A DNA stretch of 54,241 nt, taken from IMG/VR virus record IMGVR_UViG_3300048921_000323, positions 1 to 54,241 of that record. The stretch is one strand, 5' to 3'. The notes under the pieces were generated by a model. The model was given only the letters and a program-made list of their open reading frames with translations. It made no database searches and was not told where the DNA came from. Below, in pieces: positions 361 through 51,183 of the stretch; position 1 is the stretch's first letter, and each line of letters opens with the position of its first letter. This stretch comes from a virus. A program made the position numbers and the translations under genes.

Positions 361-450
361 GGTCCAACGAAAAAGGCCGGAAGCCCTGTTTTTTGCAGGT
401 ATTCCGGCCTTTCGAAGCCCTGTCGGGCTGAATAAGTGGTGGAGCCAAGG
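361..450 (-). repeat. attL: tRNA-Ala 3' end plus terminator copy
   Basis: This 90-bp segment matches 51033-51121 with roughly 90% identity (a handful of substitutions and three single-base indels). Bases 437-450 are an exact copy of the last 14 bases of the tRNA-Ala gene on the minus strand, including the encoded CCA. The rest contains the hairpin terminator found downstream of the tRNA. After base 450 the similarity to the tRNA stops, so the crossover lies within the 14-bp core. By the usual logic of tRNA-integrating phages, this side holds the displaced host tRNA end. Confidence 0.85.
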
Positions 451-20719: not shown

Positions 20720-20940
20720 CCGACAGCGAGGCGATCAGCAACCTGCGGCTGCGAAAGCGGTACAGCCTGCAGCTCCGCAGGCACGGCCGGTGCTGGGCTT
20801 GCCAGTTCCGGCAGCAGGGCGCCGATGGGTACCACTGCAAGGGCTTCACCGCGCGGCAAGGCAGCTGCGATACCGACGGGCGCCTGCCCGTGTTCCGATT
20901 CGATGCTGCCGTACTGGAGGGCCTGCGCGATGCGCAATAA
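20716..20940 (+). CDS. Cys-rich mini-protein
   Basis: A 74-residue basic protein with CWAC, and further Cys at YHCKG and GSCDTDG, giving a possible zinc-binding site. It overlaps rusA by 4 nt and the next gene by 11 nt. No family is recognised. Confidence 0.55.
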   Translation: MTDSEAISNLRLRKRYSLQLRRHGRCWACQFRQQGADGYHCKGFTARQGSCDTDGRLPVFRFDAAVLEGLRDAQ

Positions 20941-21463
20941 CGATCCGCTGACCGAGCAACTCCGCCGCTGGGGCCACGCCCAGGTGAACCGTTTCGCGCT
21001 GAGCCGCGCCGACCGGAGCGTGCACGTGCTGGACAAGGTTCGCGACCACGCCCCGCTGACCCGGGAGCGGGCGATGCAGGACCTGGTGGGGCGGGACGGG
21101 GAATCCCGCCGCCGCTTCATGGCCGCGCGCTCCGGGGTGCAGGGCATGCAGATGCTGCCGACCTGGGCCGTCGACCCGGTGCGCGCGGCCAATGATGCTG
21201 ACAAGCCGCACGACAACGCGGAGATCGCGGTGGATATGGGTACGCCTGACGAGCTGCGCTGGGTTGATCGGGCGCTGGCATCGATGGCGCGGCAGTACCC
21301 GATGCGTGCGCTGATCCTCCGCACGGAGTTCACTGTTTCGGCCAGCCAGGCGGTGAAGGCGCGGATGGTGGCTGAGCAGTACGGTGGGACTTTGACATTG
21401 AGGCAATATCGGTACGAACTGCAAAAGGCGATGCACTGGTTTCAGGGCCGGCTTGCCGCATAG
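20930..21463 (+). CDS. Probable late-gene regulator (antiterminator Q-like)
   Basis: A 177-residue helical protein placed just upstream of the candidate late promoter and its hairpin, the classical Q position. The C-terminal 70 residues look like a helix-turn-helix/sigma-region-4 type fold (ALASMARQYPMRALILRTEF and a final amphipathic helix with QKAMHWFQGRL). It may belong to DUF1133-like antitermination proteins. The family call is tentative; the context is the stronger argument. Confidence 0.55.
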   Translation: MRNNDPLTEQLRRWGHAQVNRFALSRADRSVHVLDKVRDHAPLTRERAMQDLVGRDGESRRRFMAARSGVQGMQMLPTWAVDPVRAANDADKPHDNAEIAVDMGTPDELRWVDRALASMARQYPMRALILRTEFTVSASQAVKARMVAEQYGGTLTLRQYRYELQKAMHWFQGRLAA

Positions 21464-21494: not shown

Positions 21495-21689
21495 ATGCGA
21501 GGCAAGTGTCCAAAGTGCGAGAAGCTGGTTATGCATGTGAATACCGATGCCATCGAGGTCCGCAGCGGAGGCAGAACTTTCGCTGGCGTGACGTTCAACT
21601 GCCCTTATTGCTCTACGGTTCTATCAACCTCGATGGATCCATTGGTTCTGCACAACCAGGTCCTGGCGACGATCCAACAAAAGCGTTGA
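21495..21689 (+). CDS. Small zinc-ribbon protein
   Basis: A 64-residue protein with CPKCEK near the start and CPYCST about 32 residues later, a two-pair zinc ribbon. AAGGAG precedes the ATG at 21495 by 9 nt. Its stop codon overlaps the -35 box of the putative late promoter. Function is unknown; it might be a transcription accessory factor. Confidence 0.65.
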   Translation: MRGKCPKCEKLVMHVNTDAIEVRSGGRTFAGVTFNCPYCSTVLSTSMDPLVLHNQVLATIQQKR

Positions 21690-21715
21690 CAAGTGACGTC
21701 ATAGAATGGTCTGAT
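21686..21715 (+). promoter_or_regulatory. Candidate late promoter PR'
   Basis: TTGACA (-35, 21686-21691) matches consensus exactly; 18 nt later TCTGAT (21710-21715) is a moderate -10. It lies after the Q-like gene and before a hairpin and the lysis genes. Confidence 0.5.
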
Positions 21716-21740: not shown

Positions 21741-21767
21741 GAAGCCCTGGCCAAAAGCCGGGGCTTC
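21741..21767 (+). terminator. Hairpin downstream of PR' (tR'-like)
   Basis: GAAGCCCTGGC pairs with GCCGGGGCTTC over 11 bp with one wobble and a 5-nt loop. Only a weak T-rich tract follows. Its place about 20 nt downstream of the predicted late start fits a pause or terminator that a Q protein overrides. Confidence 0.5.
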
Positions 21768-21843
21768 TGCGTTCCTGACCCCCAACACCGATTGACCACC
21801 GAGCGACCAGGCCTGAACACCTCGCCGAGAGGCGACAAGGGCC

Positions 21844-21897
21844 GGCACCTACTCCGGGGCGGAGAGCGGCTGGGTCCATGACCCCAGCCAAGGTGCC
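21844..21897 (+). ncRNA. 54-nt predicted three-way-junction RNA
   Basis: An outer 7-bp helix GGCACCT/AGGTGCC encloses two hairpins: CTCCG/CGGAG (852-864) and GGCTGGGTC/GACCCCAGCC (868-889, one bulged C). A GAGA-loop hairpin TCGCC/GGCGA lies just before it (near 21820). There is no gene between 21690 and 21988. Purpose unknown: perhaps a leader element or a relic of a tRNA-like molecule. Confidence 0.45.
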
Positions 21898-21988
21898 TAT
21901 CCAGCGGTGGTGATCGGCCTTCTACGCCCGCGGCCCCCCGGACCAACCATGTCAATTCGCACCAGCCGGTAGCGGGGCGGGCACCTTT

Positions 21989-22063
21989 TGCAGCGTGGAG
22001 AAGAGGCATCTCGCCGGGCTCATAACCCGGAGGTCGCCCGTTCGAATCGGGCCGCTGCTACCA
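21989..22063 (+). tRNA. Initiator-like tRNA-Met(CAT)
   Basis: A full 75-nt cloverleaf with encoded CCA. Acceptor TGCAGCG/CGCTGCT leaves 1:72 as a T-T mismatch. The D stem is GAGA/TCTC with a 7-nt loop. The anticodon arm CCGGG-CTCATAA-CCCGG reads CAT, the variable loop is AGGTC, and the T arm is GCCCG-TTCGAAT-CGGGC. The unpaired 1:72 position, the three consecutive G:C pairs of the anticodon stem and the A11:T24 pair are the classical initiator-tRNA hallmarks. It ends 14 nt before the endolysin start. Confidence 0.85.
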
Positions 22064-22077
22064 ACCACGGAGACACC

Positions 22078-22704
22078 ATGGTGAGCACTGAAACAGTCGC
22101 GGCCGCCATGGGCGCCGGCATGTACGCGCAGCCGCTGGAAGACGTCTGCATCCGATTCGGCATCGTGTCGGCGCTGGAAAAGTCCCACTTCCTGGCGCAC
22201 ATGGCGGTCGAGTCGCAGGGCTTCAGCCGTGTGCGGGAGAACCTCGGCTACAGCGCCGCGAGGCTGCTGGAGGTCTTCCCGGGCCGCAACGGCCTGACGA
22301 CGCTGGCGCAGGCAAAGGCCATCGTCGCCGGCGGGCGCAATGCGATCGCCGAGGCCATCTACGGCGGTGCCTGGGGCGCCGCGAAACTCGGGAACACGCA
22401 GCCCGGCGACGGAGCGCGGTTCTCTGGCCTCAGCCTCATCCACCTGACCGGGCGGGCGAACGTGACGGCCTATTCGCAGGCCCTGTACGGGGACGACCGG
22501 GTGGTGCGCGACCCCAGCATGCTGGAGAAGCTGCCCGACGCGGCGCTGGCGGCCGGCTGGTACTGGGTGTGGCGCGGCTGCGGTGAGCCGGCGCGGCGGG
22601 ACGACCTGCGCGGCAGCACCCGCAAGGTGAACGGCGGCCTCAACGGCCTGGCCGACCGGGCGATCAAGCTGGCGCAGGCCAAGAAGCTGTTCGGCATCGC
22701 ATGA
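22078..22704 (+). CDS. GH19 chitinase-like endolysin
   Basis: A 208-residue glycoside hydrolase family 19 lysin that cuts peptidoglycan. Visible features are FLAHMAVESQGFSRVRENLG with the catalytic Glu, SAARLLEVFPGRNG, AEAIYGGAWGAAKLGNTQPG and FSGLSLIHLTGRANVTAYSQ. No signal peptide is present, so release needs a holin. GGAG stands 5 nt before the ATG at 22078, right behind the tRNA. Confidence 0.92.
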   Translation: MVSTETVAAAMGAGMYAQPLEDVCIRFGIVSALEKSHFLAHMAVESQGFSRVRENLGYSAARLLEVFPGRNGLTTLAQAKAIVAGGRNAIAEAIYGGAWGAAKLGNTQPGDGARFSGLSLIHLTGRANVTAYSQALYGDDRVVRDPSMLEKLPDAALAAGWYWVWRGCGEPARRDDLRGSTRKVNGGLNGLADRAIKLAQAKKLFGIA

Positions 22705-23240: not shown

Positions 23241-23384
23241 ATGTACGGCGGAAATGGCAATTGGTTCATCGGCGGCATCGTCCTGGCGATGATTGCGGGT
23301 GCGGCCTTGATGGGCATCCTCTTCTGGCTGGTCCCTCTGCTGTGGGGCTTGATCAAGCCCTGGTTGCACATGGTGACGGGATGA
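23241..23384 (+). CDS. 47-residue membrane protein of the lysis cassette
   Basis: A short frame MYGGNGNWFIGGIVLAMIAG with one or two hydrophobic helices (residues 8-37). It begins right after the preceding stop and overlaps the Rz start as ATGA, so coupling supports it. It may be a second holin, an antiholin or a lysis accessory protein. Confidence 0.6.
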   Translation: MYGGNGNWFIGGIVLAMIAGAALMGILFWLVPLLWGLIKPWLHMVTG

Positions 23385-23905
23385 ACCGGGCAACCATCGC
23401 GGTGCTGGCCTTCATCGGCTGGTCTGCCGCTGCTTTCGGCGCTGGCTGGGCCTGGCGCGGCGACCGCGCCGAGACCGGCGAAGCCCGGCAGGAGGCAAGC
23501 ACCAGCGCTGGGCAGGTCCAGCAGCTCACCCAGACCCGTGCAGTCGAGCACAGCCAGGCCGAGGCGCTGGCCACCATCGGAGCCAAGCATGAAGAAGACC
23601 GCACCGCGGCCACGGCCGTCCCTGCTGCTGTTGCTGCTGGCGTGCGCGATGGCAGCCTCCAGCTGCGCGACGACCTCGCCACCTGCAATACCGCTCGCCT
23701 GTCCCAAGCCGCCGCCGGCGCCGTCGAACGTGACCAGGCAGCCCAACTACGAGCAGAGGTCGCGGGAGCTCTTGTTCAAATCGGACGAGACGCGGACGAC
23801 CACGTCCGTGCCTGCCAAGCCGTGATCGATGCTGACCGCCACGTCGATTTGGGTACAACGGCTAGCGGTTCCCGGGCTCAGGACGCGGCGAAGGACGCTC
23901 CGTAG
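23381..23905 (+). CDS. Rz-like inner-membrane spanin
   Basis: A 174-residue protein with an N-terminal membrane anchor (IAVLAFIGWSAAAFGAGWAW) and a long Gln/Glu/Ala-rich coiled coil, as in DUF2514-type Rz proteins. It should span the periplasm and meet the Rz1 lipoprotein to fuse inner and outer membranes in the last step of lysis. The Rz1 gene is embedded in another frame. Confidence 0.82.
   Translation: MNRATIAVLAFIGWSAAAFGAGWAWRGDRAETGEARQEASTSAGQVQQLTQTRAVEHSQAEALATIGAKHEEDRTAATAVPAAVAAGVRDGSLQLRDDLATCNTARLSQAAAGAVERDQAAQLRAEVAGALVQIGRDADDHVRACQAVIDADRHVDLGTTASGSRAQDAAKDAP
23589..23825 (+). CDS. Rz1-like outer-membrane spanin lipoprotein, nested in Rz
   Basis: A 78-residue frame starting MKKTAPRPRP, with a leucine-rich signal sequence and a lipobox-like AASSC (Cys about residue 26). 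A proline-rich stretch (PPAIPLACPKPPPAPS) follows and then a polar tail. Nested in a different frame within Rz, exactly as in lambda. The lipobox is a variant (ASSC), so processing should be checked. Confidence 0.8.
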   Translation: MKKTAPRPRPSLLLLLLACAMAASSCATTSPPAIPLACPKPPPAPSNVTRQPNYEQRSRELLFKSDETRTTTSVPAKP

Positions 23906-24180
23906 CAGAGCCGCGAAGGCTAGCCCGATGAGGCTCTGGAAGAACTCTGGGGTCATGATGCTTTCCATGGTGGGACTGTTTCCTCTTGTGGGTTTACTGG
24001 TAACCGCAACGCCTGCGGGTCGCTTCTCAGCTGTACGTGTACCGAAACGGTTGCGCGCTCGCCGAAAGGGTCTCTAACCCACGCCACCGGCTCCACTTCC
24101 GCGGTTGCCGCTGGCGTGGGTCCAATGTTCCAAGGCGTCCCAACTCCGTTCCACTTGCGGAATTTCCGCTCTGGACCCCC
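23906..24180. other. 275-bp gap between lysis and packaging genes
   Basis: No convincing gene is present. Two inverted pairs are visible: CCCACGCCA/TGGCGTGGG (about 24078-24120) and GGGTCC/GGACCC flanking the region before the terminase gene. This is where a phage cos or pac site would often lie, next to the small terminase gene, but I see no direct proof. Confidence 0.4.
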
Positions 24181-24663
24181 ATGGCTAAAAAGACTCCCAT
24201 CCAGACGCCGCCGTTGACCCCGAAGCAGCAGCGTTTCGTCCTGGAATACCTGAAGGACCAGAACGGCACTCAGGCGGCAATCCGCACGGGGTACAGCGAG
24301 AAGACCGCCAAGCAGCAGGGTTCCCGCCTGCTGACCTATCCGAATGTCCAGGCAGCCTTGCGCGCCGGGCAGAAGAAGGTGGCCAAACAGGCCGCCGTGA
24401 CAGTGGACAGCCTGATGGCCGAGCTGGAGCAGGCCAGGAAGCTGGCGCTGAGGGAGAAGCAGGCGAGCGCCGCGGTGACTGCCACGATGGGCAAGGGGAA
24501 GCTGGCCGGCCTGCTGGTGGAGAAGCACCGCCATACCGGCGCGATCGGCACCTACGACCTGACCAACATCTCGGATGAAGAACTCGACCGCCTTGAACAG
24601 ATCCTCGGTCCGCTTGCCGACGTTGGCGGAGATCCGGGCGGAGCGGGCGAGGCGAGCGACTGA
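24181..24663 (+). CDS. Terminase small subunit
   Basis: A 160-residue terminase_2/XtmA-like protein that recognises the packaging site. It has LTPKQQRFVLEYLKDQNGTQ, the helix-turn-helix ending GSRLLTYPNVQAALRAG, and a C-terminal oligomerisation segment. The start at 24181 has no good Shine-Dalgarno. The large subunit begins inside its 3' end in another frame. Confidence 0.88.
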   Translation: MAKKTPIQTPPLTPKQQRFVLEYLKDQNGTQAAIRTGYSEKTAKQQGSRLLTYPNVQAALRAGQKKVAKQAAVTVDSLMAELEQARKLALREKQASAAVTATMGKGKLAGLLVEKHRHTGAIGTYDLTNISDEELDRLEQILGPLADVGGDPGGAGEASD

Positions 24664-26146
24664 GCGAGAGCGGGCGCGCATCGCCGAGAACGTTGAGGGC
24701 ATCCGGGCCCGGTCGCAGTCGCTGGAGGGCTTCATACTTGAGCACTGGCACGTGCTGGAGCCGGTCAGGCCGCTGAAGTTCGGATGGGCGCTGCGGGCCA
24801 TGTGCAAGCACTTGGAGGCAGTCACTGAGGGCCGCATCCAGTTCCTACTGATGACAGTGCCTCCGGGCATGATGAAGTCGCTGTTGATGGTGTTCTGGAC
24901 GGCGTGGGAATGGGGGCCGGTTGGTCGCCCGGACCTGCAGATGCTGGCCACCTCCTACAGCCAGCCCAACGTGCTGCGCGACAATCTGAAACTGCGGCGC
25001 CTCATCGAGAACGACCAGTACCAGGCCGCATGGCCGATGAAGCTGCGCGGCGACCAGAACGCAAAGGGGAAGTTCGAGAACACCGGCAACGGCTTCAGCG
25101 AGGCCAGACCGTTCAGTTCGATGACCGGTGGCCGCGGCGACCGGGTGAAGGTGGACGACCCGCATTCGACCGAGACGGCCGAGAGCGACGCCGAGCGCAA
25201 GACCGCGGTTCGGATCTTCCGGGAGGGCATCACCGACCGCCTAAACGACATTACGTCGTCGGCGATGGTGATCATCATGCAGCGCCTGCACCAGCAGGAC
25301 GTCGCAGCGGTGGCCATGGAGCTGGACCTGGGCTTCGTGCACCTGAACCTGCCGATGGAGTTCGAGGCTGAGCGGGTCGACAAGGACGGCAAGAAGTCGG
25401 GCGGCCCGTGCCGTACGTATGTCGACGGGGAGCTGTTCTTCCAAGACCCGCGCACGGTGGACGGCGAGCTGCTGTTCCCGGAGCGCTTCCCGCGCGCCGA
25501 GGTCGACAGGCTGAAGCGCGCGAAGGGCAGCTATGCATACGCCGGCCAGTACCAGCAGCGCCCGACGCCGCGCGACGGTGGCCGGTTCAAGCGGGAGTGG
25601 TTCGAGGTGGTGGAGGCAGCACCGGCGATCGCGTCGGCACGGAAGGTTCGGCGCTGGGACTTCGCTGCCACCGACCCAAAGGAGAAAACCAGCAGCGATC
25701 CGGACTACACCGTCGGTCTGCTGCTGGGGGAATCCGCTGGCACTTACTACGTGCTCGACGTCGTACGCGACCAGGTGTCGCCCGCCGGCGTGGAGCGGAT
25801 GCTGAAGAACACAGCGCTGCAGGATGGCAAGGCCATCAAGGTGCGCATCCCGCAGGACCCTGGCGCCGCCGGCAAGAGCAACGCCGCACACCAGGTGAAG
25901 CTGCTGGCGGGGTGGGACGTCAAGGCGGTGCTGGAATCCGGATCGAAGGAGGTCCGGGCGACCCCGGTTGAGGCTCAGGCCGAGGCCGGAAATATCAAGC
26001 TGGTGAATGGCCCATGGGTGGCGGCGTTCTTGGACGAGATCGCTGAGTTCCCCAACGCTAAACACGATGACCAGGTGGACGGGCTCTCGGGCGCATTCGC
26101 CGAGCTCGTCACCGGCAGCACCTACAATCTCGGGAACGCACTCTGA
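24575..26146 (+). CDS. Terminase large subunit
   Basis: A 523-residue packaging ATPase-nuclease. A Walker-A-like VPPGMMKS lies at about 95-102, and the coupling region includes SSMTGGRGDRVKVDDPHSTE. The nuclease domain starts near RRWDFAATDP with DYTVGLLLG, and a final NAKHDDQVDGLSGAF carries metal-binding Asp residues. It overlaps the small subunit by 89 nt. That start is kept because no later ATG precedes the conserved N-terminal helix; a nearer non-ATG start is possible. Confidence 0.92.
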   Translation: MKNSTALNRSSVRLPTLAEIRAERARRATERERARIAENVEGIRARSQSLEGFILEHWHVLEPVRPLKFGWALRAMCKHLEAVTEGRIQFLLMTVPPGMMKSLLMVFWTAWEWGPVGRPDLQMLATSYSQPNVLRDNLKLRRLIENDQYQAAWPMKLRGDQNAKGKFENTGNGFSEARPFSSMTGGRGDRVKVDDPHSTETAESDAERKTAVRIFREGITDRLNDITSSAMVIIMQRLHQQDVAAVAMELDLGFVHLNLPMEFEAERVDKDGKKSGGPCRTYVDGELFFQDPRTVDGELLFPERFPRAEVDRLKRAKGSYAYAGQYQQRPTPRDGGRFKREWFEVVEAAPAIASARKVRRWDFAATDPKEKTSSDPDYTVGLLLGESAGTYYVLDVVRDQVSPAGVERMLKNTALQDGKAIKVRIPQDPGAAGKSNAAHQVKLLAGWDVKAVLESGSKEVRATPVEAQAEAGNIKLVNGPWVAAFLDEIAEFPNAKHDDQVDGLSGAFAELVTGSTYNLGNAL

Positions 26147-49712: not shown

Positions 49713-50951
49713 TTATGCGGCGATTTTGAGGGGATCACCTAGGCGAAGTCGATCAAGGTAGTCCGCCCATTCCTGCATCATCCGGGTGCGTTCCTCCAGG
49801 TGCGTGGTTCGATTGTAGGCCCGGCCATTGGGATCTCGCACGGCATGCGCCAGCTGGTGTTCGATGATGTCCGGCCGGAAGCCCAGCACCTCGTCCAGGA
49901 TGGTGCGGGCGATGGCGCGGAACCCGTGCCCGGTCATCTGGTCACTCTCGAAGCCCATTCGGCGAAGCGCCGTGTTCACTGTGTTCTCGCTCAGCGGGCG
50001 GTGGGCGCTGTTGCGACCGGAAAAGACGTATCGGCCAGCACCCGTCGCCATGGATCCCGCCGCAGGCTCCCGGTAGGTAAGCGGCCGGATCTCCCGTAGG
50101 ATCGCCAGCGCTTGCCGAGACAGGGGAACCATGTGCTCGGCGCGCATCTTCATCCGGCCGGCAGGGATCACCCACACGCCCGCGTCCAGATCGAACTCGG
50201 ACCATTCCGCCTGCCGCAACTCCCCCGGCCTCACGAACACGAGCGGGGCCAGTGCCAGTGCCCAGCGCGTCACCGGCCGGCCCTGGTAGGCATAGATGGC
50301 GCGCAGCAGAGGTGCCAATTCCTTCGGCTCGGCCAAAGCCGCGTAATGGCGCTTCGGCTTGGGCTGCAGTGCGCCGCGCAGGTCGGCGACGGGGTTGCGT
50401 TTGGCGATGCCCGAGGCGATGGCATAGCGCATGATCTGGCCGCAGTTCTGGATGACTCGGTGCCCAGACTCGATGGCGCCGCGGCGCTCCATCCGCCGTG
50501 CGATCGACAGGAAGTCCGGAGCCTCGAGCTCAGCGGCCTGGCGCGAACCGATCCACGGGAACACGTCGTTCTCCATCCAAGCCTCAACCTTGATCCGGTA
50601 CGACGGCGCCCAGATCCGGCCCTTCATCCATTCCCGGCCGATGGACTCGAACGTCAAGGCGTCCAGACCGGCCTTCGCCGCTGCCGCGTCCTTCTTCTGC
50701 TGGCCGGGGTCCGTCCCTTGCGCCAGCAGTCGCCGGGCATCTTCTCTGCGGTTTCGCGCCAAGGCCAGCGTGACCTCGGGATACACCCCCAGCGCCAGGC
50801 GCTTCTCCTTGCCGCCGAAGCGGTATTTCATCCGCCACCAGCGGCCGCCGGCGGGCGAGATCTCCAGGTAGAGGCCGCCGCCGTCGAACAGCTTCTGGGT
50901 TTTACCGGTCGGCTTGGCGCGCCGAATCGCGAGATCGGAGAGTGGGGGCAT
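49713..50951 (-). CDS. int: Tyrosine integrase, P4 type
   Basis: A 412-residue site-specific recombinase. It has the DUF4102 N-terminal domain ([40 protein letters not shown]), the core-binding domain and a catalytic domain with Arg in [10 protein letters not shown], His-x-x-Arg in [10 protein letters not shown] and the nucleophile Tyr in RAYNRTTH. It drives integration at the tRNA-Ala end and excision with AlpA. It is read away from attR and ends close to the five-helix gene. Confidence 0.95.
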
Positions 50952-51032: not shown

Positions 51033-51121
51033 GGTACAACGAAAAAGGCCGGAAGCCCTGTTTTTGCAGGTGTTCCGGCCTTTCGAGTGCCCGGTCGGGC
51101 TGAATATTGGTGGAGCCAAGG
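51033..51121 (-). repeat. attR: tRNA-Ala 3' end and terminator
   Basis: Bases 51108-51121 form the attachment core shared with attL, and the repeat extends on to 51033 through the hairpin. Since the tRNA here is intact, this side carries the phage-derived 3' end and a phage-borne terminator copy. Confidence 0.85.
51041..51084 (-). terminator. Terminator of tRNA-Ala
   Basis: GGCCGGAA and TTCCGGCC flank an inner pairing of CCTG with CAGG. On the minus strand a T run (TTTTTC) follows the hairpin. It ends the tRNA transcript. A near copy lies in attL. Confidence 0.8.
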
Positions 51122-51183
51122 AGGATCGAACTCCTGACCTCGTCGATGCGAACGACGCGCTCTCCCAGCTGAGCTATGGCCCC
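51108..51183 (-). tRNA. tRNA-Ala(CGC), integration target
   Basis: A complete 76-nt tRNA with acceptor GGGGCCA/TGGCTCC, a standard D arm, anticodon loop TTCGCAT (anticodon CGC), T arm with AGTTCGATCCT and encoded CCA. The prophage has recombined with its 3' end; the 14-bp core restores the gene. Its promoter lies in the right chromosomal flank. Confidence 0.95.

Follow-up and report, generated by a model that had tools for sequence, protein, structure and literature searches.

An initiator-like tRNA gene in the late leader of a prophage, directly ahead of the endolysin gene

A 54,241-base virus record (IMG/VR IMGVR_UViG_3300048921_000323), the whole of which is referred to here as the window, reads as an integrated prophage and carries a complete tRNA gene with anticodon CAT and the determinants of an initiator. 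These determinants are conserved among phage relatives, and the tRNA occupies a slot in the leader of the late genes. The leader also occurs without a tRNA, and elsewhere the slot contains a different tRNA or is followed by a different lysis gene; the tRNA is therefore optional cargo of this slot and not a dedicated partner of the endolysin gene that follows it, and the link between the two is positional.

The prophage encodes a CI-like repressor, replication proteins resembling O and DnaB, NinB, and RusA, followed by lysis, terminase, head, and tail genes (Table 1). The closest relatives of the endolysin are encoded in Stenotrophomonas genomes (90% identity in S. rhizophila, L211; 84% in Stenotrophomonas sp. 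278, L212). Since the nearest relatives sit in these genomes, the host of the prophage is probably Stenotrophomonas, and a temperate Stenotrophomonas siphovirus forms part of the explanation that we consider best.

Table 1. Features of the prophage window, in order of position.
Feature	Position	Strand	Basis or remark
att-like repeat, left, 45 nt	371..415	.	repeat search
177-aa gene, weakly antiterminator-Q-like	20930..21463	+	phrog_79, E 0.0028; also phrog_35346, unknown function
Possible late promoter, TTGACA, 18 nt, TCTGAT	21686..21715	+	sequence; TTGACA conserved in relatives
GC hairpin GAAGCCCTGGCCAAAAGCCGGGGCTTC, terminator-like (tR'-like), weak T run	21741..21767	+	folding; conserved in relatives
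Element b, conserved leader RNA with a multibranched fold, closing helix CCGATYRACCACCG/CGGTGGTRATCGG	21788..21917	+	folding, covariation
Element c, conserved hairpin GCCCGC..CCCC..CCGGAYCAACC..CCGG..GGGGCGGGC, ~57 nt	21926..21982	+	pattern search, comparison
tRNA-fMet-like gene, CAT anticodon, encoded CCA, 7-nt D loop	21989..22063	+	ARAGORN, Rfam, sequence
Putative Shine-Dalgarno of endolysin, GGAG	22069..22072	+	starts 6 nt after tRNA CCA
Endolysin, 208 aa	22078..22704	+	PHROG 181, E 2.4e-49
Rz-like spanin, remainder of lysis cassette	23261..23905	+	family match
Terminase small and large subunits, start of packaging module	24037..26146	+	family match
Integrase	49713-50951	-	family match
att-like repeat, right, 45 nt, between integrase and tRNA-Ala	51042..51086	.	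repeat search
tRNA-Ala	51108-51183	-	ARAGORN; intact

Fold, initiator marks, and relatives of the tRNA

An initial annotation of the window had proposed a full tRNA with three initiator signatures in the late transcript; the tRNA and its signatures are confirmed, and a position in the late region is supported. ARAGORN calls a tRNA-Met(CAT) at exactly positions 21989-22063 of the plus strand, and the covariance model Rfam RF00005 scores it at 57.8 bits (E 5.9e-10 in the window) against a gathering score of 29. The minimum free energy (MFE) fold of the isolated tRNA is the cloverleaf (-30.5 kcal/mol). Position 1:72 is unpaired (T1:T72) and the six remaining acceptor pairs form; the D stem (GAGA/TCTC) contains A11:U24, and three G:C pairs (G29-31:C39-41; stem CCGGG/CCCGG) adjoin the anticodon loop CTCATAA. 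The T arm is GCCCG/CGGGC, position 73 is A, and the encoded CCA (22061-22063) is separated by 14 nt from the endolysin ATG (22078). The gene lies in the late region, between the weakly Q-like gene and the lysis and terminase genes. A cloverleaf with CAU and CCA, no Watson-Crick pair at 1:72, A11:U24, and three G:C pairs at 29-31:39-41 together support an initiator-type tRNA, for which formylation and entry into the P site are predicted.

The fold and the initiator features are confirmed to be beyond chance. In an alignment of 13 sequences (the window tRNA, 11 phage relatives, and the host initiator), cloverleaf pairs form in 95.6% of cells and both-sided changes occur at 10 of 21 pairs, compared with a shuffle mean of 4.7 (0/500 shuffles reach 10). 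Only 1:72 fails to pair in most of the sequences (unpaired in 11 of the 13 tRNAs), and the anticodon-stem pairs 30:40 and 31:39 are invariant.

Two further observations concern the flanks of the tRNA. The MFE structure of the segment 21923-22100 (element c, the tRNA, and the start of the endolysin gene) is an alternative fold that breaks the cloverleaf, in a calculation that ignores co-transcriptional folding and modification; it possibly reflects competition between hairpin and tRNA, or merely GC richness. An N-terminal extension of the endolysin in frame through the tRNA (ORF 21988-22704) was rejected because the tRNA-to-ATG gap varies from 13 to 16 nt among relatives and does not keep the frame.

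The window tRNA shares about 79% identity with the Stenotrophomonas host initiator and 83-84% with the tRNAs of phages D3 and BUCT566, and its D loop has 7 nt, as in other phage tRNAs, compared with 8 nt in D3 and 9 nt in the host initiator. Given these identities and the short D loop, the tRNA belongs to a phage lineage and is not a recent copy of the host gene. The host initiator resembles it in T1:T72, A11:U24, GGGCTCATAACCC, and an encoded CCA, but differs in its D loop and in several base pairs that are swapped by compensatory changes.

A degenerate pattern, which fixed R11, Y24, the anticodon, and a pyrimidine at position 33 but set no constraint on 1:72 or on positions 32, 37, and 38 of the loop, identified 69 IMG/VR stretches with an initiator-like tRNA. 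Among 58 unique well-folded phage tRNAs, 1:72 is unpaired in 49 and forms only A:U or U:A, never G:C, in nine, and the anticodon loop is other than CTCATAA in 35; these sequences are related and the counts are not independent trials. Position 1:72 is paired in 118 of the 119 other tRNAs of the loci. The CTCATAA loop is kept in all 40 host initiators recovered by pattern search (found in 39 of 41 Xanthomonadaceae genomes), and altered loops in so many phage tRNAs are odd if host initiation must be served. By pattern, most Xanthomonadaceae genomes have one initiator gene and some have two, in draft assemblies that may hide copies.

Loop changes U33C, A37U, and A38U were observed in the phage tRNAs of L302, L306, L301, L141, and L001 (phage D3), at positions that do not vary among the host initiators seen. 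Bordetella phage PHB09 (L316:3003-3077) has a tRNA-Met-like gene, absent from its annotation, that combines T1:T72 and GGG:CCC with C11:G24 and is located directly 3' of a terminator-like hairpin and ahead of the terminase genes. Genes downstream of general IMG/VR initiator tRNAs, listed without family assignment, showed no clear preference for lysis functions; in some of these contigs the tRNA may belong to flanking host DNA.

The late leader and its contents

A consensus scan of the window called neither the possible late promoter nor the terminator-like hairpin that precede the tRNA. The Q-like gene ahead of the leader matches phrog_127, an antiterminator-Q-like family, in relatives (E 9e-22 in L294; E 8e-13 in L138), and the AlphaFold model of the window protein was unusable (mean pLDDT of 36). 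A terminator was detected ahead of 7 of 80 short-D-loop tRNAs, compared with 2.2% in the control, and is clear in D3 relatives and in L295. D3 relatives, together with a few others, account for the seven cases, and the layout is not general. The tRNA is probably read mainly by antiterminated late polymerase.

The leader of the window as a whole has a folding z-score of -2.55 and comprises two conserved elements. Element b, of about 130 nt, was identified with or without the tRNA in L301, L292, L212, L303-L305, L308, L309, L311, and L323. In ten phages, 97.5% of its 24 assigned pairs are kept, with 8 double-changed cells, and no shuffle reached its covariation score. No Rfam match was obtained for element b, and the covariance-model search for it over 397 genomes, in which few candidates were scored per genome, gives a lower bound.

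Element c was an unexpected find beside the tRNA. Its pattern matches 103 viral stretches. In Stenotrophomonas phages (the window; L392-L485, L489-L498) the element stands ahead of lysis genes that belong to several unrelated types, mostly leaving 17-22 nt between its end and the start codon. The genes that follow it (n = 102) comprise 54 lambda-R-like endolysins, 16 of the window type, 8 GH108 endolysins, 5 holin-like genes, 3 M15 genes, 12 that are unclear, and 4 off the contig end; family matches of representative genes are to endolysins or holins. tRNAs flank the element, with Gly or Tyr upstream and fMet downstream. Two compensatory exchanges were noted by eye (CCGG:CCGG to CCAG:CTGG and CCCC:GGGG to CACC:GGTG). 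Because the arms are otherwise nearly invariant, partly since the search pattern fixed them, it is conservation of sequence rather than of structure that is well established for this element. We found no description of it: it matches no Rfam family, and a search of 50,697 named phage records with its commonest form gave no hit. Element c was seen in 3 of 150 Xanthomonadaceae genomes, all three within the Stenotrophomonas set. That lysis genes with no relation to each other share it suggests either a regulatory RNA or a boundary sequence at which modules are exchanged.

The slot itself is variably occupied. A gap of 13-16 nt separates a tRNA-Met from the endolysin start in L211, L301, L216/L294, L302, L306, and L141, and more distantly in L213. 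The leader lacks a tRNA in L212, L303, L304, L305, L308, and L309, and the same endolysin type follows the tRNA-less leader in L212, L303, L304, L305, and L308. Other isotypes lie upstream of related endolysins (tRNA-Gly in L138 and tRNA-Trp in L131), and tRNA-Tyr is also among the occupants in relatives. Conversely, the same tRNA precedes GH19-like, GH108 (L311), and M15 endolysins, the M15 case being a close variant of the tRNA in L375, where the gene that follows is similar to the L414 M15 endolysin. Across 160 related loci, the density of tRNAs upstream of the endolysin is about 11 times that elsewhere (9 in 78 kb versus 12 in 1174 kb). The close tRNA-less relatives show that the tRNA is dispensable, and with these natural matched leaders with and without it, any influence of the tRNA on burst size or on the timing of lysis is directly testable.

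Possible roles of the tRNA

We place at about even probability the explanation that the gene encodes a functional initiator tRNA of the phage, a late-expressed spare that would be cut from the late transcript. The gene would be an optional module in the leader of a Q-controlled late transcript, such that late polymerase passing the terminator would transcribe the leader, the tRNA, and the lysis genes. RNase P and 3' processing would then excise the tRNA just before the endolysin Shine-Dalgarno, and host enzymes would charge and formylate it. The presumed benefit to the phage would be a spare initiator pool confined to lytic growth, the hosts seemingly having one or two initiator genes. We prefer this explanation because the initiator determinants are conserved, although a tRNA that was purely a processing signal could do without them, and because the hosts seem to have few initiator genes.

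A broader proposal, speculative and rather unlikely, is that the late leader of these Stenotrophomonas phages comprises undescribed structured RNA modules (b and c) together with tRNA slots, that element c would act in cis to control lysis genes of any type, and that excision of the initiator tRNA would tune the timing at which the lysis message becomes translatable.

It is unlikely that the phage tRNA serves as a backup against host anticodon nucleases, standing in for host initiator tRNA that VapC-type toxins have cleaved and itself protected by changes in the loop. Such a role has been hypothesized for phage tRNAs (PMC10264068), and it would accommodate the loops changed in 35 of 58 phage tRNAs versus 0 of 40 Xanthomonadaceae host initiators, including those of L301, L302, and L306 with changes at positions 33, 38, and 37. 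However, these changes occur only in relatives, and the loop of the window tRNA is the same as that of the host. Moreover, phages are reported to lack, as a rule, a tRNA-fMet gene of their own where this tRNA is a target of VapC (PMC10264068), and PIN/VapC-type proteins were identified in 2 of 6 tRNA-bearing hosts versus 6 of 6 hosts of tRNA-less leaders, a small sample with a trend opposite to the prediction. On this trend, VapC presence was rejected as a driver of tRNA carriage.

The suggestion in the initial annotation that the tRNA is a processing signal that frees the lysis message describes a possible role and a real rival to the spare initiator. In its fuller form, RNase P cutting at the tRNA would detach the lysis message from the structured leader upstream and set the 5' end and timing of that message, which we regard as unlikely. 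The short distance from the CCA to the Shine-Dalgarno, the differing isotypes in the same place (Trp in L131, Gly in L138), and the concentration of tRNAs upstream of the endolysin speak for such a role. Yet processing is not required, because natural tRNA-less leaders (L212, L303-L305, and L308) carry the same endolysin type, and RNase P has no need of conserved initiator determinants.

Quite improbable is the view that tRNA genes gather at the early/late module boundary through recombination as neutral or selfish cargo, with no benefit to the phage. This would account for the optional presence, the several isotypes, and the shuffling of modules before unrelated endolysins, as well as for the tRNA-Met of phiLM21 at the same boundary, but not for base pairing and initiator features that are maintained across phages through compensatory changes.

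Finally, it is highly improbable that the tRNA replaces or derives from a host attB tRNA, whether through tRNA-dependent lysogeny as known in actinobacteriophages (PMC10865867) or as the attachment-site relic once suggested for it: the prophage does adjoin a tRNA gene, but this is an intact tRNA-Ala, so that integration has not disrupted an adjacent host tRNA of the same isotype, the att-like repeats are some 21 kb and 29 kb away from the tRNA-fMet, and both halves of the latter are complete, with ~79% identity to the host initiator. Integration may use the terminator of the tRNA-Ala and not that tRNA itself. The att-like repeats are able to fold into a hairpin (GGCCGGAA..TTCCGGCC) immediately 3' of the tRNA-Ala.

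Relation to known systems

The purpose of phage tRNAs is an old open question, and a lone initiator tRNA cannot provide the usual codon compensation. Stx phages, which are lambdoid, likewise have tRNAs in their late region, near the Q, stx, and lysis genes. Those tRNAs differ in comprising Arg and CAT-anticodon isotypes, for which codon use is the usual explanation, and are not known to be initiators. Closer parallels are Pseudomonas phage D3 together with BUCT566, Haboob, and phPA-G, which encode a short-D-loop initiator-like tRNA-Met with C1:T72, A11:U24, and GGG:CCC. At the early/late junction of D3-type phages, TTGACA and a GC hairpin with a T run are followed 9 nt later by the tRNA-Met, before the lysis and terminase genes. 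Unlike in the window, this tRNA does not abut the endolysin and is annotated merely as tRNA-Met, and D3, Haboob, and phPA-G carry further tRNAs (Gly, Asn, and Thr).

Sinorhizobium prophages of the phiLM21 type carry a lone tRNA(CAU), designated tRNA-fMet in some of them, with antiterminator/HNH genes on one side and terminase genes on the other (PMC12429752), but the tRNA of phiLM21 is on the opposite strand and no lysis gene adjoins it. Phage-borne tRNA-fMet is thus already known from previous reports (PMC12429752), as is tRNA-Met at the early/late boundary in D3 and phiLM21. What is unexpected to a specialist is the optional arrangement in which the tRNA abuts the lysis gene, together with element c.
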